Assembly: GCA_015680905.1 (NCBI GenBank) | Contig: CM027377.1 | Span: forward strand, 37,844,501-37,908,500 | Reading direction: 5' to 3' | DNA length: 64,000 nt | Source: Coptis chinensis | Lineage: Eukaryota; Streptophyta; Magnoliopsida; Ranunculales; Ranunculaceae | Part shown: piece by piece, positions 1 through 62,540 of the stretch | How the letters are laid out: each line of letters begins with the position of its first letter | How positions within the stretch are numbered: position 1 is the first letter of the stretch | Notes under the pieces: generated by a model | What the model was told of the DNA's origin: nothing | Databases searched by the model: none | What the model saw: only the letters and a program-made list of their open reading frames with translations | Made by a program: the position numbers and the translations under genes

Positions 1-422
1 CTGAGCCTTTCTTTAGCCTTTCATAAACCACAATTCCTTTACCCTTTTACAAAAACAAAACAAAATAAAAATTAGCCTACCCATTTTTGAATGAGTTTGA
101 GAATATAGTTGAAATAACGAATAGGAAAGAGAAAGACCTTTGAAACCAAGAATTTGTTGGTTGCTTCAATAAGAAAATAAAGTTTTCATCCAAAGAAAAG
201 AAAAATAAAATAAAATAAAAAGTTTGTGAGTATCTTCTCTGGGAAACTCTCACGAGGCTATAACTTGTCCACTAGAGAATTCCTAGTGGTTTAAAGCCTT
301 ATTGCATATGGTCAATGCAATTTCACTCAGCGAAACGAGATTAGTTAGAACTCCATTTTTTGTCACTTATTTTAATTTATCATATTTGCTTGAGGACAAA
401 CAAAATATTGTTTGGGGTGGTT
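1..422 (+). mobile_element. Athila-like element A1, 3' internal end
   Basis: This is noncoding 3' internal sequence of a Ty3 LTR retrotransposon, ending in a G-rich polypurine tract (TTGTTTGGGGTGG, 409-421) directly before an LTR. It matches, in reverse complement, the 3' internal region at 46367-47420, including the stretch that reads CACGAGGCTATAAC and the nearby TTGCATATGG. No coding sequence is visible. The rest of this element lies left of the window. Confidence 0.75.
269..320 (+). other. Conserved pre-LTR hairpin block
   Basis: An inverted repeat (CCACTAG ... CTAGTGG, 269-289) is followed by TTGCAT ... ATGCAA around 302-320. The same arrangement occurs just upstream of the polypurine tract in other families of this window: on the minus strand near 7430-7480, 11830-11915 and 46470-46521, and on the plus strand near 60235-60320. 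Its role is unknown. It may be a structured RNA signal in the element transcript. Confidence 0.55.
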
Positions 423-973
423 TGATAAGTGCCCAAAACTGTAGTTTTAACCCCTTAATAATATTACATTTAGACCAATTATGCTTATAATAAATAAAAG
501 TTAGTACTGTTTACGTACTTTTGTGTATTTCAGATCTTTGAGTCAACTATATGAAGAAATATGTCACTTTTGCAAGAGAAAGGATCAAAGGTTGGTTGCT
601 AAGAAATTCTATTTTTAAAGCCCAAGTTTCAAGGAGAAAAAAACCTTTTTAAATCCCAGTAAAAACTGAAAAGTCAAAGTCAACGCGGGCAGAAATAGAG
701 CATAAAAGTCAACAGAACTTTTGCAGATCGTATCTTTGGACTCAGACCTCGAAATTAAGCCTACTATATGTCAAAACGACCGGATCGGAAAGAGATTTCT
801 AATGGTTTAGGCCTTGATCTAATCAGAGGAGTAAAAATGGATGAAAAGGCAATTGTAGTAATTTCCAACATATAAACTTTTTTGGACTTAAGTAATTAGG
901 TTTTGGGCTTGATTTAATGGCCCAAAATATAGCTCCAAAGCCTATGCACGAATTTGTAAACCTAACCCTCTCC

Positions 974-981
974 TATATAAA
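974..981 (+). promoter_or_regulatory. TATA box in the A1 LTR
   Basis: TATATAAA lies about 550 bp into the LTR, the usual place for the U3 promoter of such elements. A CT-rich transcribed leader follows. Confidence 0.5.
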
Positions 982-1040
982 GAGGGTTAAAGCTAAACAA
1001 AACATGGTTACTCCCCTCTTTAGTTTACTTGTAAATTAGG

Positions 1041-1042
<2 letters not shown>

Positions 1043-1092
<50 letters not shown>
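1043..1092 (+). repeat. (TC)n microsatellite
   Basis: About 25 uninterrupted TC units in the LTR just downstream of the TATA box, in what would be the R/U5 part of the transcript. Confidence 0.95.
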
Positions 1093-1096
<4 letters not shown>

Positions 1097-1809
1097 GATA
1101 ATAAATTAGTTTTCTTCTTTAGTTTTAAAATCTAGTTATTGTTTTATTAGCCTAGCCACCATTAATCCAATCCAATCAAATCAAATTCCAATACAAGTGT
1201 TCTTTCATTATATCTTCTTCTTTCTATTATTATGTCCATAATAATCTAATGAATCATAGCTAAACCTCCATTAGAGGGATTTGATTAAAGCCTTGATGAA
1301 AACTTGATGTGTTAGTATAGAATAGTTGTAGTAAGATATTCTACTCTTGAGGGTAGTTAATTCACCATTAGAATGGGTTTCAATTACCTCACATGCTAAT
1401 TATTAGTTGGTAGAGATGTCATGAATAATTAGGGATAAAAAGACCTAACCTTTATGTGAAAACATAAAGATTAGGATTGCAACAACTCCGTACTAGCATA
1501 TTAGGGATTAATCAAGGTGGATTTCAAATCTCTCTATTCTTCTCTATATTTTATTCAAGTCATATTCAATTGCTTAGTTAAATTATTATAAGTTAAATTC
1601 ATATATTCAATTTTGTAGTATAAATTCACATCCATAAATATTACTCTCACCATTGTTTCCTTGTGTTTGATTAGTTGAATTCGTTTAAGTCTAGAGAGTT
1701 AAGAGTGGAACGATTTCGTACTCTATATATATTGCATGAATATATAAGTGAGAGTAGAAAATAAATAATTAATAACGTAAGATTAAGTTAGAAAAATCTA
1801 GTTATCAAA

Positions 1810-1822
1810 TGGCGCTGCTGCC
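1810..1822 (+). other. Primer binding site of A1
   Basis: TGGCGCTGCTGCC follows the LTR end after two bases. It resembles TGGCGCCGTTGCC, complementary to the 3' end of plant tRNA-Asp, the usual primer of Athila elements. Confidence 0.7.
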
Positions 1823-1915
1823 ATCTTAAACTCATTTAGGACAATTGAATTCTTGATTTTTGGCTTTAAGTCCCTGAGTCCATAGCTTTCAGCTTTGAGT
1901 CTTTGACAGTTGACT

Positions 1916-2300
1916 CACTACAACAAATAGGCTTTTTAGCGACAAAACTTTTAGTGACAATAAAAAAACATGGCTAATGATCATCTTTGGCGATGTTTAT
2001 AACGTCGCAATTTCTCTAGTGTCGTACCCTTTGATGAAAAACTTTTGGCTACGATTTTCATGTTGCTGAAAGCCTTGTTCAAAAATTTTGGAAATTTTAT
2101 AAATCAGAAAAAATTATTTGGCGACAAAAGGACGGTTGGAAAAACATTTTATCAATGACGACGTATTTAAGCGTCGGTGATGATAGAGTATCCCAACGTT
2201 GAAAAAAAAACGTAGCTAGAAATTACTTTTTTGGCGGCATTTTTCATCGTAGCCTATAGTTTGGCATAAATAGAAATTAAAAATCCATATATGGCGATGA
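1916..2300 (+). repeat. CACTA left subterminal repeats
   Basis: Repeated motifs such as TTAGCGACAAAA, TTTAGTGACAATAA, GGCGATG...AACGTCGC and GACGACG...AGCGTCGG occur in both orientations. They mirror those at the right end. Confidence 0.75.
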
Positions 2301-2479
2301 TACCAATTCTGAATTTGAATTTGTGATTTCAGCGAGTCAAAATTTTTGTTTCGAAAAATTTCAGGCTCTAAAATTTTTTGGTTATCTCGTGCCCATCCAA
2401 TTAAAAAGAAAAGGAAAAAAAAAGAGAGAAAAAGGAAAAAAGAAAAAAGAAAAAAAACCTAGCTATTAGTACTACTCAG

Positions 2480-2676
2480 TATTCACGCACTCTCTCTCCC
2501 ACTGAACCGCCATTCTTCTCGCCTCCACCACCAATTATTAAATCACCTCAACCAATTTGAATAACCCTCCCCCATCAGATCGGAGAACCGTTTCAGTAGA
2601 AGATACACTCTCCATCACTCTATTCTCTCTCTTAGGGTTTTAAATTTGATTTTTGGGGTTCCAGCTCGATTAGCAA
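2480..2676 (+). promoter_or_regulatory. Captured 5' untranslated region of the melibiase fragment
   Basis: A CT-rich stretch (CACGCACTCTCTCTCCCACT, then CCTCCACCACCA and TTAGGGTTT) resembles a plant 5' leader. It ends at the start codon of the captured gene. This suggests the capture took upstream sequence as well as exons, but I see no clear TATA box. Confidence 0.4.
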
Positions 2677-5140
2677 ATGAAATTCATTCTAGGGGGTTTA
2701 CTTAATTCTGGCTGCATATTTTGTTTTTCTCTACTATTTTTTTCAGTCATGGGTTTCTCACAAATTTCTTATAGAAATTGTTGCTGCAAGGTTTCTTCTC
2801 TGGTCTCTCAAACAGAAGACTTTCTAGAAACCAACCTGCTACAGGTGCGTGTTCTTCTTCCATTTCTTTATTCTTTCTTTCTGCAAATTAATTGTATAAG
2901 AACAAATATGCCCAAGTTGTTATTTTCTGTTTTAGTTGATGAAGAAGTGGAAATGTTACTCAAATGACTCAAACTGAGACAGTGGACAAACATTTTGAGC
3001 TTTTTGGCTATTTGACGAGTTATATTAGAATCCCTTTTCTCCTTTGTCCTTAAATTTTATATACTATGGTTTTTACCATTCTGAAATATGGTTTTTCATC
3101 TACTTTGTTTGCTTATTTTCTTTGTTAAGTGTTTTGTTTTTGTTCCTTTTTGCATTCTTTAAACAGAATCCAATTCTTAGATAAATGAGTATTATGAAAT
3201 TAATGTTGAATTGGAATTGTACATTTCAGGGAGCTATCCAAGCCTCTCGGGTAAAATGGAGGGCAAGCTAGCACCCTCCTAGAGGCCGGAAATTCATATG
3301 ATTCTTTTTCATGGATCGTTTCTGAAGAACAATTCCTCCAAAATGCAGAAATTGTTTCTAAGAGGCTACTAACTCATGGATATGAGGTCGAAAATATATT
3401 CCAACTTTTGACAAGTCAAGAGTTACCGTCTATGTTAAACACATTATGAGCAAGTATCCACAGAGAGATATTTTATTACTATTATGTTACTTCCTTGACT
3501 TAATTTTTTTTTCTCGGCAAATATGTTGTGGTGGATTTTCTCCGTATAGGAGGAAAGTTAAAGGTGCTTATACAGATTCACTCAGATTTGATGTGATCGA
3601 TTAGTGGGAAAGATGATCCTTGACCCCAAAAGATGGCCTTCGCCTATAGATGGGAAAGGGTTCAATGAAGTAGCCGAGGAAAGTACATGGCATAGGTTTA
3701 AAGTTTGGGATTCATGTCATGAGAGGAGTAAGTACACAAGCAAATCAATGCAAACTCTCCCATCTTAGACATTACCACGGTAAACCCTTCAATGTACATT
3801 GCACTTTTCCTTTTTTTCTTTTTATTTAAATAAGCTACCATTACCAAAAGTTTGGCACATAACAATCATCATAATCATACAAATGATTTGAAAGGGTACC
3901 CTTATGAAATATAATTGAAATTAGATTGCAGCATGTGTGAGCCTCATTGAAAGCCGATAAACATTGAGATATACCTACTCCCTCACATACAAATCTAGAG
4001 AAATAAGTATGGCCATTTGTTGTTGGAAATCTCAACCGACACTAGTGGTTTCTCGGGTTGGTTATATGGAGTCCGGAAGACAATGGCGTGCAAAAAGATA
4101 TAGGCCCGACAGATCGAAAATGTGCATGGATGCCACATGGTTTCATGGCGTGGATACTAAGTTGGGAGCTGGAAAAGCCTTCTTGAGGTCACTCTGTCAT
4201 CAGAATGCTGAGTGGGGTGTGGATTTCGGTAATATATTTCTTTGCAGTTGAAACATATTTTTGTCTGCTAAAGCGTGCGTCATCTGACATGGTACTTTAA
4301 TCTAAATGGAAGAGCATTCTTCAGACACCGATATACAGATGAAACCACATTCAGATTTTCGTACCACTTTTGTATGCTATTTTGTGCTCTTATTATCCTA
4401 ACACTGCTACTATCCACGACCAATCAAGAGGAATTGTACTATTTGGAATTTGTAATATCATATGATCCAAGTTTTCAACATGAATTGGGTATTATTCTCT
4501 GAAAATTTTGTTTAATGTTTTCCCCATTTTTGACACAGTGAAGCATTATTGTATCTTTGGCGATGATTTGAACATCAATGAAGTAGCCATAGTTTCAAGG
4601 TACAATGTGACAAATTTTCTTCTTCTACCAAACCGGTAATTTTCAGCTAGAACATTTTAGAGGGGGTTGGATGATTTTGTGGAGGATTTGCATAAGGAAG
4701 AGATGGCATAAAGAGCTCTAATTTATGCAGTCTTGAAGGAGCTTGATCGTCCTATCTTGTATTCTCTCTCTCCACGGAACCAAGGCAACACCAGCCATGG
4801 CCAAGGATGTGAGTTATCTTGTTAACATGTATAGGATTACTAGAGATGATTGGGATTCATGGGGTGATGTGGCAGCTCATTTTAATGTATCCGGTATATT
4901 GGTGTTCTACTCTATTAAGCTTCGAACTACTAACTCCCATTATTAATGTCGATGAGGATTGCATGCTCACTATATTTCTTTATGGTTGCTCGAGAGTTAT
5001 GAAATAACGATATATTGACTTGTGGGCGGGGACTTTTCTCTGCTGCTAATATGATAGGAACTGAGGGATTAAAAGGAAACTCATGGCCCGACTTGGACAT
5101 GCTTCCGTTGGGGTGGCTTCTTGATCCGGTAAAGAACATT
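2677..5140 (+). pseudogene. Captured alpha-galactosidase-like (melibiase family, GH27-like) gene fragment
   Basis: Successive blocks match a plant melibiase-family protein: RNSYDSFSWIVSEEQFLQNA (from about 3290), YVVVDFL (3525), the K-RWPSPIDGKGFNEVAE block (3620), ESGRQWRAK and VDTKLGAGKAFLRSL (4070-4230), KHYCIFGDDLNINEV (4541), VLKELDRPILYSLSP (4728) then AKDVSYLVNMYRIT and DDWDSWGDVAAHFNVS (4800-4892), and SAANMIGTEGLKG plus SWPDLDMLPLGW (5040-5125). A signal-peptide-like start lies at 2677. Introns remain (donor CTACAG/GTGCGT near 2845, acceptor ATTTCAG near 3229, donor CCG/GTATAT near 4893), so capture was at DNA level. It is broken: frameshifts near 3285 and in the 3530-3780 and 4080-4140 blocks, a stop near 3600, and no C-terminal part. 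Where relatives read KHDC, the likely nucleophile region, this copy has KHYC (TAT at 4547-4549). Family assignment is from recalled sequence. Confidence 0.85.
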
Positions 5141-5477
5141 GCTAGATATGACACAATCAGTATTGCCACAATATTGCTATCACCTGTTTCCGCGAAACAT
5201 TGTCCCCTTCAACGTAACATTCATAACCTTGTGAAAAGTTAAGGTAATTTTGAAGAACTTGCCGCGATCTATCACTTCGCGTTTTTCACAAGATCACACA
5301 CAATAACTTCGCCTTATCTAACTCCTTCACTATGAAAGATTTTATTTGCTTCGTGCAATTCGGGGATGTGTTTGCATGCAAACGTAGTTTACTAAACCAT
5401 TATAGGTTTTGAGGGATTAATATCTGGTCAAACTATTGACACCATAGTAGCAGAGACCATATTTGACCAAGTGATAC

Positions 5478-5604
5478 TATATACTCTTTGAACAAAAGAA
5501 GACTCTTCTTCAATGAAATATATGTTTGTCACGCTTAAATCTCTTACGTGTTAATTACTGTATTCATGGGGTGATGTGGACTTCTTTTGTTCAAAGAGTA
5601 TATA
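5478..5604. repeat. Perfect 24-nt inverted repeat
   Basis: The arms at 5478-5501 and 5581-5604 are exact reverse complements, spaced by 79 bases. The spacer contains TTCATGGGGTGATGTGG, also present in the melibiase exon near 4857, as if a scrap of that exon had been copied here. Confidence 0.8.
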
Positions 5605-5643
5605 GAATGAGAAAATATTAGATATTAATGTGATTTAACTTCT

Positions 5644-5710
5644 TTCACAGTTCTCATTATAATGTCCAGCTGCCGCCGCTGCTGCTAGACATTAGAATGA
5701 AAACTGTGAA
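5644..5710. repeat. Hairpin with 23-nt arms and GC-rich loop
   Basis: The arms at 5644-5666 and 5688-5710 pair with two mismatches. The 21-base loop consists of CTG/CCG/CTG-like triplets, unlike the AT-rich surroundings. It is possibly a small insertion or a foldback inside the CACTA element. Confidence 0.7.
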
Positions 5711-6479
5711 ATATTAGACATTCTTATTTGAAGTGGAAATGTGATTTTGGCTTATATATTTGTGGTCTTTAGAGTCTATGCTTTCTTTAGTGCCTTGCTA
5801 AGGAGGTATATAACTTCGTACTGCAGACTCCTCTAGCCTTGTACCTTTGTGCTTTCATATTAATGAAATTCTTGTTTTGTATATAGTTCAATTCTTAGAT
5901 TTATCTCAATGAATACTAGCTAGTAGAGGTCTAATGGATAAATTATTTGGATACAATTTAAACTTAACATAATTGTTAATAGTTCACGGATTTTAATTTT
6001 GTCGGAGGAAACTATTATATTTTTGTTTCCATTTTTTTTTGTGGTCTAATAGATAATATCTTTGTATACAGATACTCTTACGTCAAAATGGATTGGTTTG
6101 GTATTAGTTTTTGTGAAGAAATGGCGGTTTGGAATTGCAAGAGGCACTAGAGGAATCTAAATGCTATTTATTATCATTTTTTGTGAAGATGGTTCATTCA
6201 CAAGCTATTTGAGGGATGTTTAGAAATGTTTTTGTTTAAGTTAATACTTTTCTTAAGATGAGTTCAAAAATAAAAGTTATGAAAAGGGATGATGCAACTC
6301 TATTTTGTTGCTAATGGAGTGAATTAACTCACTTTTATTTATTGAAAATTTGTTGTTTAAGATAATTGATGCTCACGTTATATCGTTTATTTGTTGAATA
6401 GAGGGGGGGGGAGACAATTGTACAAATGGTGCACAATGTCGGCAACAATATTAGTGATCAAAATAGTGTGGGAACATGA

Positions 6480-7099
6480 TCACAACTAACCGATAGCTAC
6501 AATCAAAACGTCACTTATAACACTAATTTTTTTTAATTTGTTTTACCTTTTTTTCGACGATAGAAACGTCACTAAAAATACACAAAATTCAAATATTTTA
6601 GATCTTTAACGATGATAACAACGTCGTTTATATAACTAAAGTTTTAAATTACTGATATCTCTAGTGACAATAAAAATGTCGCTAATAAGATTTTTGATTT
6701 TTAATTTTTTGGGACTTATAGCGATGATTAAAACGTTGCTAATAATGCTAAAATTTTCAAAATTTTCAGACTTTTATTGACGTTAAAAGCGTTGCTAGTA
6801 ATGCTTTATTACCGGCGATTTTAAAAATGTCGCCAACATTTCATCTTTTGCGACGTTACTATATTGAGAATACCAAAATGAGTTAGCGACGAAATTAGAG
6901 AAATAGCGATAGTAATAAACGTCGGTAAATATCTGCTATTTTGCGACGTTAAAATAGCGTGGCTACATATCATTAACGACTATAGCATTAGCAATGTTGA
7001 CTCGACACTCCAAAAAGCGTCGCCAAGTTGTATTAGCGACGTTTCTGCGATTTTCAGCGACAATTTTTTTTGTCGCCAAAGACCTTGTTTCTTGTAGTG
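6480..7099 (+). repeat. CACTA right subterminal repeats
   Basis: More than ten copies of short motifs such as AACGTCGC, AGCGACGTT, ATGTCGCTAA and AACGTTGCTAAT lie in both orientations, ending at the terminal CTTGTAGTG. The interval between the melibiase fragment and this block (5240-6480) is AT-rich with no coding signal. Confidence 0.8.
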
Positions 7100-7321
7100 A
7101 CTTTGACTTTTCGGCAGTTTTGCTCCTAAGCTGGAATCTTCCCAAGCAGCATCAATAACAATCTTTTTTGCGCTAAAATGCACGTATTAGGAATATACGT
7201 CCTAAATGGCATGTATCCTGCAAACGGTAACAAAAGCTATAAGTTGTCTATTTAATAAGCATAAAAAGGGCATAATTGAAGTATTGTAAAGGTAACAAAA
7301 TGCACATTTGGGGTCTAATCA

Positions 7322-9620
7322 ACTACCCCCAAACAGCATTTTGCTTGTCCTCAAGCAAAGATAAGAGAAAAAAAACTAAGATCACAAATGTGTGATTTAT
7401 TATACTTGTCTCATTTCGTGAAGTGCGATACCATTGACCATATGCAACTAGGCTTTCAACCACTAGGAATTCCCTAGTGAACTTTAGTACAAAGGGTCTC
7501 GTTTCCTTATTTAATCTTAGAGGTTTATACATCTCATTAGCGGGGGAATAAAGAAAAGATCCTTTGAACTCATAATAATATATATACAATAGTTTAATCT
7601 TCTAAAGATAAACGTGCAAAGCATGAGCGGTGAAATGCAAAAGCATAGTCATTTTTTAAGCTTTTGGAGAGCGTCCTTAAGCTGAGTTCTCACAGGGGTG
7701 TGTTGCAATAACAACTCTCTTATAGATTCACTCAAGTTTTGTTTTCTCAAGTGCAGAGGGCACTTATATTCCTCATATACGCGAATGACGTCCAAGGAAA
7801 CCGGGGTCGATTGATCACAATATCCACTTACTATCACACCATTCTATTCCTAGTTGAACTAAAGGTCTTTTATTAGGAATTATGGGGATAAGGTAGTGGT
7901 TTAGAAATAAAGGGAAGGGAAAACAAACTCTGATAAGTTGAGAAATTGGGTCTTCGGATATTTGTACGAGAGAAAAACCTCGTTTTGTTCTTTTTTGCTC
8001 CAAATTTGTGATTCAATTCATTCTTTATCCCTTTGGCTTTGTGACTCCATTTTGATTTTTGGGAGTTCTAATTTTGTTTTTGTTTCTTTTGAATTCAACT
8101 CCTTTTGATTGATTTTGAACTTTTGGGGGATTTCGATTTTTGAATCTTTTCTTTCTTTTTCTTTCTTTTGAAGCTTCTAACTATTCTATTTTTGTACAAG
8201 GCCTTCTCTTCTCTTTTCACAGTTCATCCAATTCTCAACTCGTCAACTGGGTACGCTTTTTATTGTGTGTGTAGTAACGGTTTAGGGATTGATGGCGAAG
8301 AAATAAAAAGGCTTTCAGAAATTGGTAAAGGCTCAAGGGGGGGTAACTAGAGAAAAAATTATCTTTTTAGGTTTTTAACGTTTATTTGGCTATATCAATC
8401 CAAAAAAGGCCTAAATGATCTCCTAGGATATGGCGTGGTGATCAAGCAAGTGGACATGTTATCTCTCTATCCGGACATTCTTGTGTCATCACTCAATAAT
8501 CATTCAGATGAGGCTTCTGGCTAGATTCTCATAGGATATGTAACTTAACTGTTCTAACCTTGGTCTCAGAAACTCACTGCTATATACGATCAAATGTTGA
8601 TGCATGCCATTCATGAAAAGGTGCAGAAACTGTTGTATGTATATTAATCTAAGTTCGAAGAACAAATCTTTACTCTATTGCTATAATGAGACTTCTAAAC
8701 CATTTCTTCATCATAGAAAAAGGGAAAACAATACTTTTAGTACTAAAATGTAAAAATATTTTTGGTCTTTTTTGAAATATTTTATGAAAGAAAGAAATAT
8801 ATTAAATCTATCTAATATAAGAATGCTATATAATAAATGCCTAGTTTTTGCAAAATATTACTATACCAATATGTTTTGTCCTCAAAGTATGAAGAAAAGG
8901 AAATAGATTACCATAGGAACATGAGCAAAAACGGCAGTAACCTATACTATGTTCTTCGTTATGAAAATATACCACCCCCACACAAGTTTGGAGCGTCGGT
9001 TGATAGATATAGAACGAGAAATACATGGTTTATCTAAAAGGTAAAAAAACATAATTATTCTAACATGAAACTTTTGGCTTTTTTGAATTTTATTTGTAAA
9101 AACATGCATGGTGTAGAAAATACGAAAATTTGGGCATGATGTATTTGTATTTCTTTCTACTCATATACCACAAATCCTTATACATTCCACAAAACACAGG
9201 CATACATACAAATAATACTATGAAAAACTAGAAGTGCAGAAAGTAAAGACATGTACTACAACCAAAACAAATATATCTATCTATGCGGACACTAGGGAGC
9301 TGTCTAGTCAGATTCTGCGTGGGCAACGTCGAGACGAACTCGAGCTACTCCTATCTCTTCCCTCTCATCTAGCTCTCTCGGGCGTAGAAGCCTGAGAAAC
9401 TAACTCGTCTCGCAGCTCTTGAAGCATCTAGATAGTGCTGGCCTGAAAGTCGCTACTGCTCTCTGAATTGTACTCAAACCGCTGATGTAGTTGACCGACC
9501 CCTCATGCATGAATCGTGTGATTTGCACTTTTGCACGCTTTAATAATTTATTCTTAATACACACTCGAAAGTACATTTGTTCAAGTACCCTCACTCACGT
9601 GCACGTTGAAATATAATTGA
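7322..9620 (-). mobile_element. Element B1, 3' internal region
   Basis: On the minus strand this runs toward the B1 3' LTR. It has the polypurine tract (7322-7338), the conserved hairpin block (7430-7480), and a segment (8330-8560) homologous to 47400-47640 of element G, sharing GTGATCAAGCAAGTGG. The upstream part (9300-9600) may be the end of a post-pol reading frame (minus 9400-9594, about 64 residues), but I do not recognise it. No gag or pol domain is visible. Confidence 0.55.
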
Positions 9621-10118
9621 GTGAGGGTTTCGCTCCAAAACCTAAGGGCTAGAACTCTAATTAACAACCAAGTGGAGGTTTTTCTAAGAGGAGATTTAGT
9701 GAGTAGGATTTTACAAATATTTTAAAACTATTTTTCAAAATGACTGAAATTGCAAGTTACTAAAATGTGAACCTAATCAATAAATCTAATTGTTGTAAAA
9801 TGGAAATAGCAAAAAGACAATAACTTCTAATTTATATATAAAGACAATATTGGAACATATAATAAGACATAAAACAAATTTTGTTCACAACTAAATATTA
9901 ACCAAATTACAAAACTTAAACCTTACATGGAAAACTTTAAACTCCGACTAAAACTACACTATGGAGCCAAAGTTATGTCTTGCTACTAAAGACATCTTTT
10001 TATAGGAAAATGAGAGTGCTCATTCTCCTTTCTTTCACATGAAATTCAACACTCAACTGCATCATTTAATGTTCCAATTGATTTTCTTTTCCTTCCCAAC
10101 TAAATAACCATGACTTTG
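9621..10118. other. Unassigned AT-rich stretch
   Basis: No coding region or terminal repeat was recognised. It lies between the B1 internal region and the C element 3' LTR, and may belong to whatever C inserted into. Confidence 0.4.
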
Positions 10119-11138
10119 TGACACTCTCTCTTTTTGCGTATGTAGATGGTATATGGTCGTTGAACAAAAGAGAAGCGTATCAAAACCTAACTATCCCTCA
10201 ATAAATAAAGGATGAGTAGGGTATCGTTCCACTTTTAAGTGTATGTTATGTGAAGAACGAGACCTTTGGAAAGGGGTTTGAGGGATTAAAACTAATATTG
10301 TAGAGATTGTAGATTCTAATGCTAAACTAAGCTAAACTAACTAAACTATTGAGAATTTATAAGAGAGGGAATTCAAGAGATTAGAATCCACCAATACTTT
10401 TAATCTATGATCTTACTGCTTCATGGTTGTTCTTACAAGTAGACTACAATTAGGCAATCGAAATGAGTGCGATGCCCTTTTTGATGAAACATCGTTAAGA
10501 ATTAACTCTACTTAAGGTTGTTCCTATGTTTATGCTATTAATATCTTCTTTCCTTTTATGTAAGCTCGGGCAGCCATTCAATGTATTACCAAGAGCAACA
10601 TCAAGGAGTACTTTCTAATAGGGCAGCCATTCAATGAATCACCACTTAAGGCAAACACAAAGAATACTTCCCCTAGGCACCACTCCCTGAGCTACCCTTC
10701 TAAGGCAACACAAAGAATACTTCCCTAACTCTAAAGAATTACACTACTAGAAGAAAAAGTAAAGAACACTAGCATGATATTAATATTGCAAAACATAAAC
10801 CCTATTCTATACTTCCATCCCCTGGTGGGCAATGGAACTAATAACTACAAACATAAAGAACTAACCTGATTGAAGAACACCATGAACCCGTAAGAATCAT
10901 TTAAACTTTAAGCATCGCTTCATCTTCCCTTGAAGGAGAAGATTAGCCTTCCATATAGAAGGAAGAACACGAAGAACGAGAAGAAGAAGAGTTGAAGAAC
11001 ATAAGACTAGAAAGACTAATTTATTAAGACTTCGGCTAGTTAAAACCCGATCTTTTATTATTAATCTCTCTCTGCCTCCAAGTTAAGGAGACAAGAATAT
11101 AAAGTGAATTGGCAAATTACATGAGGCACTTAGGTCCT

Positions 11139-11147
11139 CTATTTATA
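11139..11147 (-). promoter_or_regulatory. TATA box in the C LTR
   Basis: TATAAATAG on the minus strand, with the same box in the solo copy at 35217-35225. Confidence 0.5.
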
Positions 11148-11261
11148 GGGGTTACAATGAGCTCTAGAAGCATTCCAAACCGTCATTTGTTTCCTAATAC
11201 AAATAGGTTTCTTTCGAGTCCAACTTCATGTCCAAAACCGAAAGGAATTGGCTACATTGTC

Positions 11262-11375
11262 GATTCATGCGTCTAGACGCATTATCCATGCGTCTCAGAC
11301 TCAATCAATGCGTCCCAGACTCAATCAATGCGTCTGGACGCTCGATCCATGCGTCCCAGACGCATAAGCCGATTT
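11262..11375 (-). repeat. Short GC-rich tandem repeats in the C LTR U3
   Basis: About five imperfect units of some 20-25 bases built on ATGCGTC(T/C)...GAC. Some form small palindromes such as GCGTCTAGACGC. Diverged versions occur at 21040-21175 and 34975-35105. The place upstream of the TATA box suggests promoter-proximal repeats. Confidence 0.7.
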
Positions 11376-11712
11376 TCTCTCTTCTGCTCTATCCTTCTAT
11401 CCTCTTTTGCGGGCTTTGGTCCAAGCAACGAATCCTTTGGCCTTGGGCTTCCAAATAGACTTTAATATAGGTCCAAGTCGCACCTTTAACAGCTCCAATT
11501 CCTTGGCCTTCTCCATGATTGTCCACGGGCCTCCCATGTGATCCTTAATGCTCGAATTGCTTCGCTTTTACCCCATTTTTCTCTAATATTCTACAAAAAC
11601 TCTTTTTTCACGTAGAGTCTTAAAACACAACTTATAAACACTATTAGTCCACTAAGATGGCTAAACAAGAGGCATAATCGAGGGTTAAATAGCACTTTTT
11701 GAGCACTTATCA

Positions 11713-13722
11713 CAACTCCCAACTAGCCTTTTGCTAGTCTCTTAGCAAATAAGATAAAAAATAGATAAGTGATCAAAATCACATCCTAATAACAAAAATA
11801 AAATCCTAACTCATTTTCAAGAGGCATCGCGATTGCATTTACCATATGCAACAAGGCTTTAAACCTTTAAGTTCCCCAAAAAGGACGAAGTTATAGTCTC
11901 GCGTGAGGGTTTTCAGGTGATATACCCACAAAATCAATCAATAGCATGTTCAAGAATGATAGTATTTTTCGAGAGAGAAATTCCTTACCCACTTTGTGCT
12001 TACTCCAATAGACAATCTCCATTGCTAATTACATTGCTGCAAAGACTCATAGATTATGATGAGAGATAGTAAAATTGACAAAAATTCTCAATCAAGGCTT
12101 ATGTGTGTACTTAGTCAATTTTCTATACTCTCCTATCCAAGAAACGGAATCCCTAGTTTACCATAGGTAGATAATCTTGACTTTCAATCCTCACCGGGTC
12201 ATACTCTCAAAAAAGAATCTCTCGAGAAGATGGTCTACTATTTTACCTCATGTATGTGGGGAAAAGAATAATGCATCTGAACATCCCACATACTACCTTG
12301 AAAAACGGACTTCCTCATAAAAGTAGTCTCATGGAAAGAATGTCAATCACATATGAAGTGTCGGGTCCTTCACTTTAGCATCCTCTCACCTATTCTAGAC
12401 TTAGCACCATCTTGTAGTGATAAGTCATGGGTTGTAACTTGGCTTGGGTATTGGTTTATGAAGGAAAGGTAAAAAGGATTCTAAGGTTGTTTAAAAAACA
12501 CTAAGGGTTTTGCTTATTTCTTTGGAAGATTTCTTCAAATTTTGTATTGCAGAAAAATTCTTCCTTTGTCTTAGCTTTTCCATCCATTCGCTCTTACTTT
12601 TTTTTTTTTTTTTTTTTTAGCTCCGATTGGTATATCCTTGATTAGTAATCGGATATGCTCGTTTTCCACTAGCTTCTTTCACTTGAACAAAATGATGGAC
12701 TTCATTGTATCTCCTCGATATTTCCTTGTAATCTTCCTTTTTGTGGTCTTTCTTCCTCCTTGTGCCCCTCGTATTCTCGAAAACATATGGGTATGGATGA
12801 TAAAGATTTTGGCTATACTCTTGTCCGGAGTTGGGTGATGGGTCAAGGGTTTTATGAAAAAGAAATGGCTTATTATAAGGCTCAAAAGGGTTAACATGAT
12901 GGTCCTACTAGGTGGGATAAAGGCTGAATGGGTTCACTACTTGACTTATCAGTATGATACTCTGTTTTGAATAGACTACAAGACCTAATGGCTATCTCCC
13001 CAGTTGATGTCACTTCGTGATTAACCAAATCAACGAATAATGAGACTATATTACAACGACATAAAGAACTGAAAAGATGATGAGTCACTAAGACTTCGGA
13101 TTTTTCGTAAGAACTCTCCAAAGAATGAGTATAAAGCTCAAGTCTCACGGGCTAAGTCTAAAAATTCTACTTCCAGTTTACTAGGGGTTTAAATCTCTCT
13201 TCTAGCAAAAGTACACAAAACTACCAAGTATTATGGTGGTGCCTTGATAAAGAATTCTATCAATAAGAACTATGTCCGAAAGCATAATAAATAGTCTAAG
13301 CGGCAATGAAATCAATAATATCAACTATCTATCAAATTCAACACTAAGCGTTATAGAATATATATCCCGACTCATCATTAAAATTCATTTTTTCATCATA
13401 TCTTGATATAAAACAAAAATGTTTTTGTTTTGAAAACTAATTTTTGAAATTAGTTTCTCAAGTACACCCTCCCCCCTACTTATGCATGCATTGACCTCAA
13501 TGTATAAAGAAGTAAATGAAGTGGATGAGAAAAGGTAGGATATTACCATTGATGCCGAATATCAATATTTGATCTTTCTCATCATATAAAGGTTAAGCTT
13601 ACAAAATAGAGGTGGCGAATCTCTGATTTCCCAAGAATGGGTTAGGGTTTTGGGTTTTGAGGTGATGTGGGAAGAGAATGAGTTGTTGGGCGAAATATGA
13701 ACCGATTTGGCCCAAACCCATA

Positions 13723-23977: not shown

Positions 23978-24755
23978 TGAATTAAAACATGGAATGAAAT
24001 TGGTTTTGGTGATTATCTTACTCACAAAGTTATACTCATTTGAACTTGTCAAATCAGTATGACTTGTGTTGTGGGATTAAAGCAATATGAGATAAGTAGA
24101 GAAAACTTGTATATAAGATAAGATGATAAACTTGTATTGAAAGGACTAAGAACTTGTATTGAAAACACTAAAGCTTAAAGAACATAAAAATGGAAAACAA
24201 GTAAATAACAATTTAAATTAAAACATTTAATCTACTCCTAATGACCAAAGATTAGCTCTGTGGTCTCTACTCCTAACAAACCAAATGGTTTGGACCCTAA
24301 AACATTGGATAACTAATTTTCTACATCTCTTTTGTTTATATAAGGCACTAATTACATCTATGCCCTTCCTTCTAGAAAACAACCTTGTGGGCTTTTGACC
24401 TAAGCCCATACAATGGAATTCTTGATTTTGGCTTTAAGTCCTTAAGTCCTTAGCTTTCAAAGATTAAGTCCCTAAGTCTTTAGCTTTCAGCTTTAAGTCC
24501 TTAAGTCTTTGAGAGTTGACTTTGAAAATTGACTTTGACTTTCCGACACTTTTTGCTCCCAAGTTGGAATCTTCCCAAGCAAAGCATAAATAGCCATCCT
24601 TTTTAGGCTAAAATGCACGATAGGAATATCGTCCCTAAATGGTTTGTATCCCGCAAAACGGTAGCAAAAACTATAAGTTGTATGTTCATTAAGCATAAGA
24701 AGGGCATAATTAAAGTATTGTAAAGGTAATAAAATGCACATTTGCGTACTGATCA
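23978..24755 (-). repeat. Likely solo LTR of family B
   Basis: On the minus strand it starts TGATCAGTACGCAAATGTGC at 24755 and matches the B1 LTR. The high end is exact, because the flank GTTGTGGAAGATAC continues the D element as it does in G (49871). The low end is inferred from the matching 5-base duplication GTTGT (23973-23977 and 24756-24760) next to TG, and is less certain. A TATA-like TTATATAAAC lies near 24348. Confidence 0.5.
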
Positions 24756-50950: not shown

Positions 50951-52475
50951 TGATAAGTGCTCAAAAGTAATGATTTATAACCCCAATTATGTGTATATTA
51001 GTCTCCATTTTATATTTAAATATTCTAATATGATGCAATTTGAGTTTTTTGCAGGTCAAAGAACCTAAATATGAAATATGGAGGGAAAAGAAGTCAAACA
51101 AGTCAAAAAGGAGTCACTGGGAATTACAGCTAAAGGCCTAGGGCAAAAATGTCATATTTGTCTCCATAAGTGCCAAGCCTAATGGGACTCTAAAAGAGGA
51201 TAATAATTGAGTTAGAAGAGTCTTCAATCTGATCTCAAAGCCTTAATTTCGACTTCATAGGAAGATGAGATCAACATGGAAAAGAAGTCAGAGTTTCACA
51301 AGAATTAGGAAACTGAAAGCTGTCAGAAGCTGCAGCTTGGGAAATAGCCTGCAGGGCAAAGTGGGCCACGTCCAACTTTGGTCCAACCGAATTTAACTTT
51401 TCCAGGATTTCTTCTAGAAATATTACAGAGAGTTTGACACCAAATAAACATAGGATTCGGATCTCTATCCAGACGAGCATGTAAGCCAATATATAAGGCA
51501 CAAAAACCTCAGTTTACAATGATCTAGGAAATTTAGTGTTTGCATCTTAGATCTAGAATTAAGAGAGAAGAAAGTTCAGACCTTTTCACCATTAATAGCT
51601 ATAAAGATTATTCCTTTTCATATTGTGTTCATAGCATAGTATGAGGGGCTAATCTCCCTTCTCTTGGGAGGGGAGATGAAGCCTTTTTCGTATGTTTTAG
51701 TTTAGTTCTTCTTCTATCATGTTTTAGTTTAAATCCCTCATTGAGTTTCTTCTTATTCGTCCATTGATCTAACGCTCCTGTGGAGGTTAGGAGGTCTTAG
51801 GGTAATTCAAGATTGTGTAGAGCCAAATACCACAAACCCTAGATTCTTTTCTTCTAGTTTTTAGTGTTCTAGTGTGATGATTGGATTCTTTATGGCACCT
51901 CAATTAGTTGTATGGTTAATGCCACATGTGGATTTTCCATGGCACCTAGAGTTGTATATTGAATGCCACTTAAAGCACAATTTGGTTAGATAGAAGATAT
52001 CATTGGAGTTTGAAGAAGTATTTAATGGAAAGATAGAAAGCACGCTTGAAATCCACATATTATCATCATGGTTATGAGCATCGCTCAGAGGTATGGTGAG
52101 TTTCTATTGGAGATTTATATTAAGCATGATAGGTAGATCTATTAGACTAATTCTATGATTTTGGTGGATTCATCTCTCCCAAGATATTCTCTCTTTGATT
52201 CATATTTATATATTTAATTTAGTTTATTTTTTGCATAGTTTAAATCTCAAATCAAATCAACCATATATTACTTATTACTTAGCCACATCTTTTACTTGCA
52301 TCCATTAGAGTAATTTAGATTAGGAATTTCTATTACTATCAACTAGTTATTTAGAGTAGGATTGATACCTTGCTAGCCACTATACTAATCAATATATATT
52401 AGGCTAAGTAAGATTTGCAAAAGATAATGCGAACACAAACAACCACACAATTAATTACGTGTTATGTTTTTTTCA
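50951..52475 (+). repeat. 5' LTR of F
   Basis: Starts TGATAAGTGCTCAAAAGTAA and ends TTTTTTTCA, 1525 bp. A TATA box (TATATAAGG) lies at 51490-51498. Confidence 0.93.
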
Positions 52476-52490
52476 ATGGCTGCGCTCTAA
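52476..52490 (+). other. Primer-site position of F
   Basis: ATGGCTGCGCTCTAA follows the LTR. It begins TGGC like the other primer sites but diverges after that, so the primer tRNA is uncertain. Confidence 0.4.
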
Positions 52491-60432: not shown

Positions 60433-61949
60433 TGATAAGTGCTCAAAAAGTAATGATTTATAACCCCAATTATGTGTATATTAGTCTCCATTTTATATTT
60501 AAATATTCTAATATGATGCAATTTGAGTTTTTGCAGGTCAAAGAACCTAAATATGAAATATGGAGGGAAAAGAAGTCAAACAAGTCAAAAAGGAGTCACT
60601 GAATTACAAAAAGGCCTAGGGCAAAAATGTCATATTTGTCTCCATAAGTGCCAAGCCTAATGGGACTCTAAAAGAGGATAATAATTGAGTTAGAAGAGTC
60701 TTCAATCTGATCTCAAAGCCTTAATTTCGACTTCATAGGAAGATGAGATCAACATGGAAAAGAAGTCAGAGTTTCACAAGAATTAGGAAACTGAAAGTCA
60801 CGTAAGGCTGCACTTGGGAAATAGCCTGCAGGAAAAGTGGGCCACGTCCAACTTTGGTCCAACCGAATTTAACTTTTCCAGGATTTCTTCTAGAAATATT
60901 ACAGAGAGTTTGACACCAAATAAACATAGGATTCGATCTCTATCCGCATCGAGCATGTAAGCCAATATATATAAAGCACAAAACCTCGGTTTACAATGAT
61001 CTAGGAAATTTAGTGTTTGCATCTTAGATCTAGAATTAAGAGAGAAGAAAGTTCAGACCTTTTCACCATTAATAGCTATAAAGATTATTCCTTTTCATAT
61101 TGTGTTCATAGCATAGTATGAGGGGCTAATCTCCCTTCTCTTGGGAGGGGAGATGAAGCCTTTTTCGTATGTTTTAGTTTAGTTCTTCTTCTATCATGTT
61201 TTAGTTTAAATCCCTCATTGAGTTTCTTCTTATTCGTCCATTGATCTAACGCTCTTGTGGAGGTTAGGAGGTCTTAGGGTAATTCAAGATTGTGTAGAGC
61301 CAAATACCACAAACCCTAGATTCTTTTCTTCTAGTTTTTAGTGTTCTAGTGTGATGATTGGATTCTTTATGGCACCTCAATTAGTTGTATGGTTAATGCC
61401 ACATGTGGATTTTCCATGGCACCTAGAGTTGTATATTGAATGCCACTTAAAGCACAATTTGGTTAGATAGAAGATATCATTGAGTTTGAAGAAGTATTTA
61501 ATGGAAAGATAGAAAGCACGCTGAAATCCACATATTATCATCATGGTTATGAGCATCGTTTGTAGGTATGGTGAGTTTCTATTGAGATTTATATTAAGCA
61601 TGATAGGTAGATCTATTAGACTAATTCTATGATTTTGGTGGATTCATCTCTCCCAAGATATTCTCTCTCTTGATTCATATTTATATATTTAATTTAGTTT
61701 ATTTTATGCATAGTTTAAATCTCAAATCAAATCAACCATATATTACTTATTACTTAGCCACATCTTTTACTTGCATCCATTAGAGTAATTTAGATTAGGA
61801 ATTTCTATTACTATCAACTAGTTATTTAGAGTAGGATTGATACCTTGCTAGCCACTATACTAATCAATATATATTAGGCTAAGTAAGATTTGCAAAAGAT
61901 ACGTAACACAAACAACGACACAATTAATTACGTGTTGCGTGCTTTTTCA
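60433..61949 (+). repeat. 3' LTR of F
   Basis: Starts TGATAAGTGCTCAAAAAGTA and ends GCTTTTTCA, 1517 bp, nearly identical to the 5' LTR. Confidence 0.93.
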
Positions 61950-62540
61950 ACAACTCTTTTAGAAACTTAGCGTGTCCAGGTAGACTTTTTATAGCTTCTA
62001 GAAAAGGTAGGTTTATAGTCAAATTTTTAAACACTTCCCTAATCTCATCAAAATTCTCGTCATTTTTAAACACAACTAGGCTTTGGGGATATGGTGCTTT
62101 ATCGCTATTTTTAACAGAAGGGATAAAAGTATTATTAGGCTTTGCTTTATCTCTATCTGTTTTCCATCTAGGTATCCATATTGGAACCTCTACAGGTGTA
62201 GGGTCTTCACTTTCTATTATTGGATCTTGTAATGTTTTCCCTTTTGGTTGTGGTTTAACTGGTACTTCTACAGTTGTAGGGTCTTCAGTTTCTATTATAG
62301 TATTTGGTATGACATCATTTTTAGTTTGCGGGTAATCTTTAGGCATAATCACTTGGTTATCAACTACTCGCCCTGAACGAAGGGTAGTAACTGCCTGTAG
62401 GTCCACTTGATTTATATTACCATTACACTGAATACTTTTTATTTCGGCGCGTGTTTGTTGACTTAGGATTAGGCATTGCTTGACTTGGAAACACGCCCGT
62501 TTGGTTATTATTTTGGTTAGAAGACATGTCAATAACCTTT
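61950..62540 (-). pseudogene. G gag C-terminal part (fossil)
   Basis: LQAVTTLRSGRVVDNQVIMP, repeated EDPT(T/P)VEVP segments, then NLTINLPFLEAIKSLPGHAK, closely matching D (25814-26290) and A2. The internal EDPT...VEVP motif is present twice here. Broken. Confidence 0.75.

Follow-up and report, generated by a model that had tools for sequence, protein, structure and literature searches.

What is a recognizable piece of a plant glycoside hydrolase gene, introns included, doing between the ends of a transposon, how did it come to be there, and does it retain any function? The question is raised by a 5,184-bp CACTA element of Coptis chinensis, which occupies positions 1916–7099 of a 64,000-nucleotide stretch of contig CM027377.1 (the window; the contig is C1 below, in a genome of 935.6 Mb and 116 contigs). 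Host gene DNA lies between the transposon ends, its donor is found elsewhere in the genome and multiple copies share the cargo, the features by which a Pack-CACTA element is recognized. We therefore read it, with a probability of about 0.9, as a non-autonomous Pack-CACTA that arose through one capture from a gene of glycoside hydrolase family 27 (GH27), probably by template-switching repair, that would be moved in trans, and that carries its cargo as non-coding ballast. Pack-CACTA elements are of an already known kind, and the present one would be a clean example of a known process.

The element, its cargo and the donor gene

The element starts with CACTA at 1916 (first letters CACTACAACAAATAGG) and its final TAGTG ends at 7099 (last letters CTTGTAGTG), with ACT adjoining both ends. 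CACTA-type terminal inverted repeats, a 3-bp duplication and subterminal motifs at both ends were all found, which place it in the CACTA superfamily. The core motifs counted (GCGAC, GTCGC, AACGTC and GACGTT) are absent from each of 2351–3068, 3083–5561 and 5672–6450. A paralogue of the flank without the element (window 24490–24755) provides an empty site with a single ACT at the junction, and the 16-base left end occurs 31 times genome-wide, compared with 9 times for a reversed control. A sequence-only reading of the locus had described clear termini, an ACT duplication and subterminal motifs, all of which were borne out, as was its view that the interior is not transposase: no start-codon open reading frame (ORF) inside the element exceeds 96 amino acids, the longest stop-to-stop ORF in 2400–5300 is 97 amino acids, and a Pfam search with six raw ORF pieces from the window revealed no transposase. 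As no transposase was found in it, the element is non-autonomous, still inside the CACTA superfamily. A search of window 1–12000 against Rfam gave no match. The main parts of the element are:

1913–1915, target-site duplication, left copy (ACT)
1916–1948, forward strand, left terminal inverted repeat, beginning CACTACAACAAATAGG, 26 of 33 bases matching the right end when inverted
1916–2350, left subterminal motif zone, 4 core motifs (shuffled mean 0.3, maximum 2, 200 shuffles)
1916–3068, forward strand, 5′ module of the transposon family, with the leader-like stretch inside it, common in whole or part to sister elements with other interiors
2845–2850, forward strand, possible splice donor of the 5′ module (putative; GTGCGT here, GTACGT in L027 and L033–L035)
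3083–5567, forward strand, captured host DNA (donor L028 4217–6685, intron 1 to intron 7)
3230–3386, forward strand, captured exon 2, with GAA changed to TAA in every one of the six copies
3522–3779, forward strand, captured exon 3, in which each of the six copies has AA in place of the acceptor AG and TAG in place of CAG
4055–4228, forward strand, captured exon 4
4539–4599, forward strand, captured exon 5, with KHDC to KHYC in all six copies
4730–4893, forward strand, captured exon 6
5031–5128, forward strand, captured exon 7, the SWPDLDMLP region
5672–7099, forward strand, 3′ module of the transposon family, common to loci without melibiase cargo
6451–7099, right subterminal motif zone, 17 core motifs (shuffled mean 0.5, maximum 3, 200 shuffles)
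7067–7099, reverse strand, right terminal inverted repeat, inverted match to the left end (26/33)
7100–7102, target-site duplication, right copy (ACT)

The donor (L028, C6:68347000–68356500) matches element positions 1168–3652, and its gene continues on both sides of the captured part, the continuation matching a paralogue (L037). Across the introns, identity to the donor is 91.5% for the window cargo and 91.9–93.4% for the other copies; mRNA was rejected as the template, since introns are kept. The captured coding part comprises donor exons 2–7 (914 of about 1,944 coding bases) and runs in sense with the 5′ and 3′ modules. The element lacks donor exon 1 (L028 3552–3625), which holds the start codon and encodes a signal-like peptide. 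The proposal of a captured melibiase-family fragment with introns kept was hence upheld by the donor alignment; it was to be given up if no host gene aligned across the introns, or if the ends were unshared, and it was found that L028 does align and that the CACTA ends occur in other copies. The same proposal had the cargo include the gene's 5′ leader and start codon and extend from the leader through SWPDLDMLP. The SWPDLDMLP end stands, and the left part does not: exon 1 is missing, and 2400–3068, rejected as part of the melibiase gene, is shared by sisters with other interiors and no melibiase cargo, the captured segment being 3083–5567 and not 2400–5240.

The donor gene model (exons placed by reading frame and GT-AG, with hand-chosen borders and exon 11 set with the help of L037) comprises 14 exons whose 647 codons contain no stop and are followed by TGA, with GT at 13/13 splice donors and AG at 13/13 acceptors. 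Its protein matches Melibiase_2 (PF16499) in Pfam with 69.9 bits against a cut-off of 23; Melibiase_C is also above its cut-off, and a ricin-B match falls below. The nearest solved proteins are, by their names, 3cc1 (a putative alpha-N-acetylgalactosaminidase) and 4nx0 (a GH27 beta-L-arabinopyranosidase). The donor is thus predicted to be an intact-looking member of GH27, for which 'alpha-galactosidase' is a family label and not a substrate assignment.

Copies were sought with the DNA of 2400–5240 (best 40 of 85 candidates scored) and then compared locally. Whole-element copies at 95–97% were found on C6 (L024), C7 (L025), C8 (L026) and C9 (L027), and a C5 copy (L029) at 94–96%, the left end of which appears about 51 kb away (C5:53193884–53194388). 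With the window copy there are six melibiase-carrying copies, each on a different chromosome, and cargo and junctions are common to all of them. The C5 copy looks split by nested insertions; one, at the position of window 3886, is flanked by TTTGAAAG and ends in CTAGGTTACAT and ATGTAACCTAG (by eye), and it looks like a small hAT-type element. Exact 3-bp duplications are ACT (window copy and L026), AAC (L024), ATG (L025) and ATT (sister L030); sister L034 lacks the final G, and in L029, L032 and L036 the ends compared for duplications are not both true ends.

The flanks of the window copy and L026 are about 98–99% alike on both sides, from the left edge of the window to about 10,120, which indicates one insertion copied with its surroundings. 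The flanks of the remaining copies differ from one another, so that L024, L025, L027 and L029, together with the window/L026 insertion, represent five insertion sites. A block of about 10 kb, element included, is common to window 1–10120 and C8:34142668–34152764. Segmental duplication fits these common flanks, and a surrounding repeat may instead have moved with the element inside it. A second flank copy 5–6 kb upstream at both loci stops matching at base 1852, before the insertion point is reached, and therefore does not choose between duplication and repeat movement; its presence at both loci suggests that the common block is longer.

Family modules, junctions and the route of capture

Both ends of the element belong to a wider family. 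The 5′ module has 88.7–93.8% identity to sisters L030–L036 and L042, matching (in element coordinates) to 1151/1153 in L030 and L031, to 1034 in L034–L036 and to 901 in L042, and from 378/484 to 1153/1150 in L032 and L033. The 3′ module was found at 34 non-melibiase loci among the matches listed (best 40 of 186 candidates scored), starting at 5668–5688 in 24 and at 5712–5756 in 10. The sisters form two groups with other interiors, L030/L031 and L034–L036. Two pieces of the L035 interior (E 1.2e-26 and 1.2e-8) match GWD1_pHisD, a domain of alpha-glucan water dikinase, and this interior is shared at the DNA level by L034 and L036; a search of the PDB with the glucan water dikinase piece gave no match. 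A third interior, about 3 kb long, is common to L030 and L031 (about 95% identical), and four pieces of it from L030 gave no domain match. The source gene of the leader was not found; a 79% match lies at C4:81859054, and the leader peptide gave 31 places, among them three 25-residue matches (C4, C6 and C8; 84–92%). The leader ORF (2677–2967) is unsupported as a coding exon, with 12, 18 and 13 variable sites by codon position (56 sites each), next to 33/161 upstream and 39/221 downstream.

The segments at the two junctions, with fillers assessed by 300 mononucleotide shuffles each, are:

3065–3082, forward strand, left junction zone, in which TATGGTTTTT at 3065–3074 repeats 3087–3096 of the captured piece
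5562–5579, forward strand, right filler 1, an exact 18-base copy of captured exon 6 (4855–4872); 0/300 shuffles
5581–5608, reverse strand, right filler 2, an inverted copy of captured intron 7 (5474–5501), 27/28; 0/300 shuffles
5609–5642, right filler 3, 34 bases
5643–5671, reverse strand, right filler 4, an inverted copy of the 3′ module start, 25/28, hairpin; 0/300 shuffles

The first 6 bases of filler 1 also equal donor intron 7, the donor match stopping near 5567, and L048–L050 match filler 4 only in inverted orientation. The left junction is the same in 6/6 copies, and so is the right if minor differences in L026, L027 and L029 are set aside; identical junctions in six copies indicate one capture, followed by spread. 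Short templated fillers are a trace of template-switching repair or of polymerase-theta end joining. Because the right junction carries such fillers, we infer that the 2.5-kb DNA copy of part of the GH27 gene on C6, enclosed by the 5′ and 3′ modules of the family, was acquired during template-switching repair of a double-strand break, either as gap repair following excision or as end joining of the polymerase-theta type.

Another route would start from two CACTA insertions close together, one in intron 1 and one in intron 7 of the donor, which lost their inner ends and moved as one hybrid with the DNA between them, as proposed for Arabidopsis Pack-CACTA and other Pack-TYPE elements in the available parts of PMC13317346 and PMC8903248. 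Both breakpoints do lie in introns, which tolerate insertions; however, the end modules have no match in the 9.5 kb around the donor, and the fillers copy the captured interior, which fits repair synthesis, even if end joining on the hybrid route could leave fillers too. We regard the tandem-insertion route as possible and somewhat doubtful. Several observations weigh against our own interpretation. The absence of the end modules around the donor means that neither capture route is marked there, the 10-base repeat of adjacent donor sequence at the left junction has no shuffle control, and filler 3 has no significant source (95/300 shuffles). Copy L027 and the sisters L031 and L035 lack an exact target-site duplication. 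The six raw ORF pieces gave no melibiase match in Pfam, because the exons are short and broken.

After capture, transposases of related elements would have moved the element in trans. Transposase_21 is very common in the genome (2,715 candidates, the best 150 of which were scored), and at three places among the matches listed a Transposase_21 domain was seen by eye 5.4–7.5 kb upstream of a right-end match in the same orientation (domain/right end):

C6:40125098/40131106
C1:73206318/73199655
C8:12750995/12759152

State of the cargo, copy differences and possible RNA effects

To judge from the stops shared by all copies, the lost acceptor, the D-to-Y change and the lack of constraint, the cargo is dead as a protein. 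The changed Asp of exon 5 aligns with the position at which 4nx0 (D) and 4nxk (A) differ, and is presumably the catalytic nucleophile. Fixed cargo–donor differences number 8, 5 and 3 by codon position (of 298, 298 and 299), with 62/1,515 in introns, and polymorphic sites away from CAG/CTG number 17, 16 and 14 (of 225, 226 and 225), with 75/1,269 in introns; there is no third-position excess and no constraint visible in the codon positions of the cargo. Length changes shift the frame locally in exon 2 of L026 and in exon 3 of the window copy and L025, the stop base change still being present. A new functional, translated gene would accord with the splice donors of the captured exons, which are GT in 35/36 cases, and with the length of exon 5, kept in 5/6 copies, but the two shared stops, the lost exon 3 acceptor, KHYC in all six copies and the unconstrained codon positions leave it next to no probability. 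The cargo had lost its coding capacity before the copies multiplied, and has since been carried as ballast that at most supplies donor-matching sense RNA or small RNA.

Differences between copies are not evenly spread. They are enriched at CAG/CTG (6.1-fold in the 5′ module, 3.1-fold in the cargo and 4.1-fold in the 3′ module), compared with a range of 0.3–1.9 across four sets of control motifs; CG (1.9 to 6.9) and CCG/CGG (1.2 to 4.1) show enrichment as well. In the window/L026 pair 52/99 CAG/CTG sites differ, and 43 of these differences are indels or non-transitions; the figure for the control GWC is 22/100, and that for CCG/CGG is higher still (48/69). Three other CACTA pairs gave 37–45% at CAG/CTG against 12–22% for the control, L040/L041 (a second CACTA family) 29.2% against 16.0%, and L038/L039 (a duplicated unit) a weak contrast of 27.3% against 22.9%. 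The clustering recurs in an unrelated long terminal repeat pair of the window (50951–52476 and 60433–61950), where 9/20 difference events have CAG/CTG within their 3-base surroundings, compared with 7.9% of positions lying within 2 bases of CAG/CTG, the unequal widths slightly favouring the contrast.

Deamination gives transitions. Part of the copy differences are of this kind, and many are indels and odd substitutions, which resemble the nanopore consensus errors described at methylated CCAGG/CCTGG in bacteria in the available part of PMC6591954. The clustering at CAG/CTG suggests that consensus errors were left uncorrected at methylated CHG sites of the assembly, a warning that what look like mutations in its methylated repeats may be such errors. 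The window cargo is highly divergent, for which gene conversion was considered and is a conceivable cause; the excess lies largely at CAG/CTG sites. Cargo–donor distances (5.7–7.3%, or 5.0–6.2% away from CAG/CTG) exceed those between copies (2.6–4.9%, or 1.7–3.3%), so that the split from the donor preceded the spread. The clustered differences make absolute dating unsafe; of what alignment to the parent locus had been expected to yield, the exons could be counted (2–7 of 14) and no safe date of capture was obtained.

The sequence-only reading had raised chimeric or antisense RNA acting on the intact parent gene. A chimeric or small RNA from the element that changes how this donor gene is expressed appears unlikely. 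In its favour, the cargo follows, in sense, a leader that has a candidate splice donor, and many words of the captured donor stretch occur exactly in at least one copy (1,243/2,449 21-mers and 1,139/2,446 24-mers, compared with 64/2,120 and 37/2,117 for the paralogue L037). Matching short words, however, do not demonstrate regulation; none of the six copies retains the exon 3 acceptor, and L025 and L026 have changes in the possible splice donor. Small-RNA crosstalk with the donor is possible on these matches, as is a spliced chimeric RNA from the candidate donor at 2845, where GT is present in 10/13 aligned elements (L042 does not reach the site). More unlikely still is the idea that the family acts as an exon-trap platform, its 5′ module bringing a promoter, leader exon and splice donor to unrelated gene pieces inserted downstream, and each new cargo being at once expressed, spliced and able to silence its donor gene. 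It would agree with the cargo starting downstream of the possible splice donor in three groups (the melibiase group, L030/L031 and L034–L036); L042 and other matches of the DNA search leave the 5′ module before that site, which is therefore not a fixed capture point, and this lowers the odds.

Recurrence and comparison with known systems

Related captures exist in the same genome. L040 (C8:82.68 Mb) and L041 (C7:28.27 Mb) form a second CACTA family with ends CACTACTATAGAAA and CACTACTACAGAAA and duplications that are exact in L041 (TAC) and ATG/ATA in L040. They hold a piece of the paralogous GH27 gene L037 (L041 against L037 94.4% over 198 bases and 92.5% over 1,771), so that two CACTA families appear to have captured from two members of one gene subfamily; on this sequence comparison, the L040/L041 capture is independent of that in the window element. 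L038 (993–7275) and L039 represent a duplicated unit of about 6 kb with L037 fragments, reverse-oriented in L038, in which terminal inverted repeats were looked for and none found.

A literature search joining CACTA, gene fragments and alpha-galactosidase gave no match, and the wider class is familiar. Pack-TYPE transposons are reportedly the subject of Catoni et al. 2019. Zabala and Vodkin (2007) are said, by their title, to treat a soybean CACTA element with mobilised gene fragments and alternative splicing; that element likewise carries gene fragments, with splicing reported in the title, and the window element has one donor and is known from DNA alone. In Chenopodium, host gene fragments are likewise found inside CACTA elements, where, in the available part of PMC8978399, they lie upstream of the transposase coding sequence, whereas no transposase was found in the window element. 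Maize Ds elements with filler and intron-keeping fragments (PMC3260210, in part) likewise used genomic DNA and not mRNA as template, but belong to the hAT superfamily, unlike the CACTA element described here. The closest likeness is to the Pack-CACTA elements of Arabidopsis, rice and maize, which share CACTACAA-type ends, non-autonomy, captured host coding DNA and several copies; compared with what the available part of PMC8903248 describes, a single element here reveals donor, breakpoints and templated fillers, and the end modules of that element are found again in groups whose interiors differ. The result is a well-resolved capture, with an intact-looking donor, intronic breakpoints, templated right fillers and sisters with other interiors, which together let the two proposed capture routes be compared within one family.

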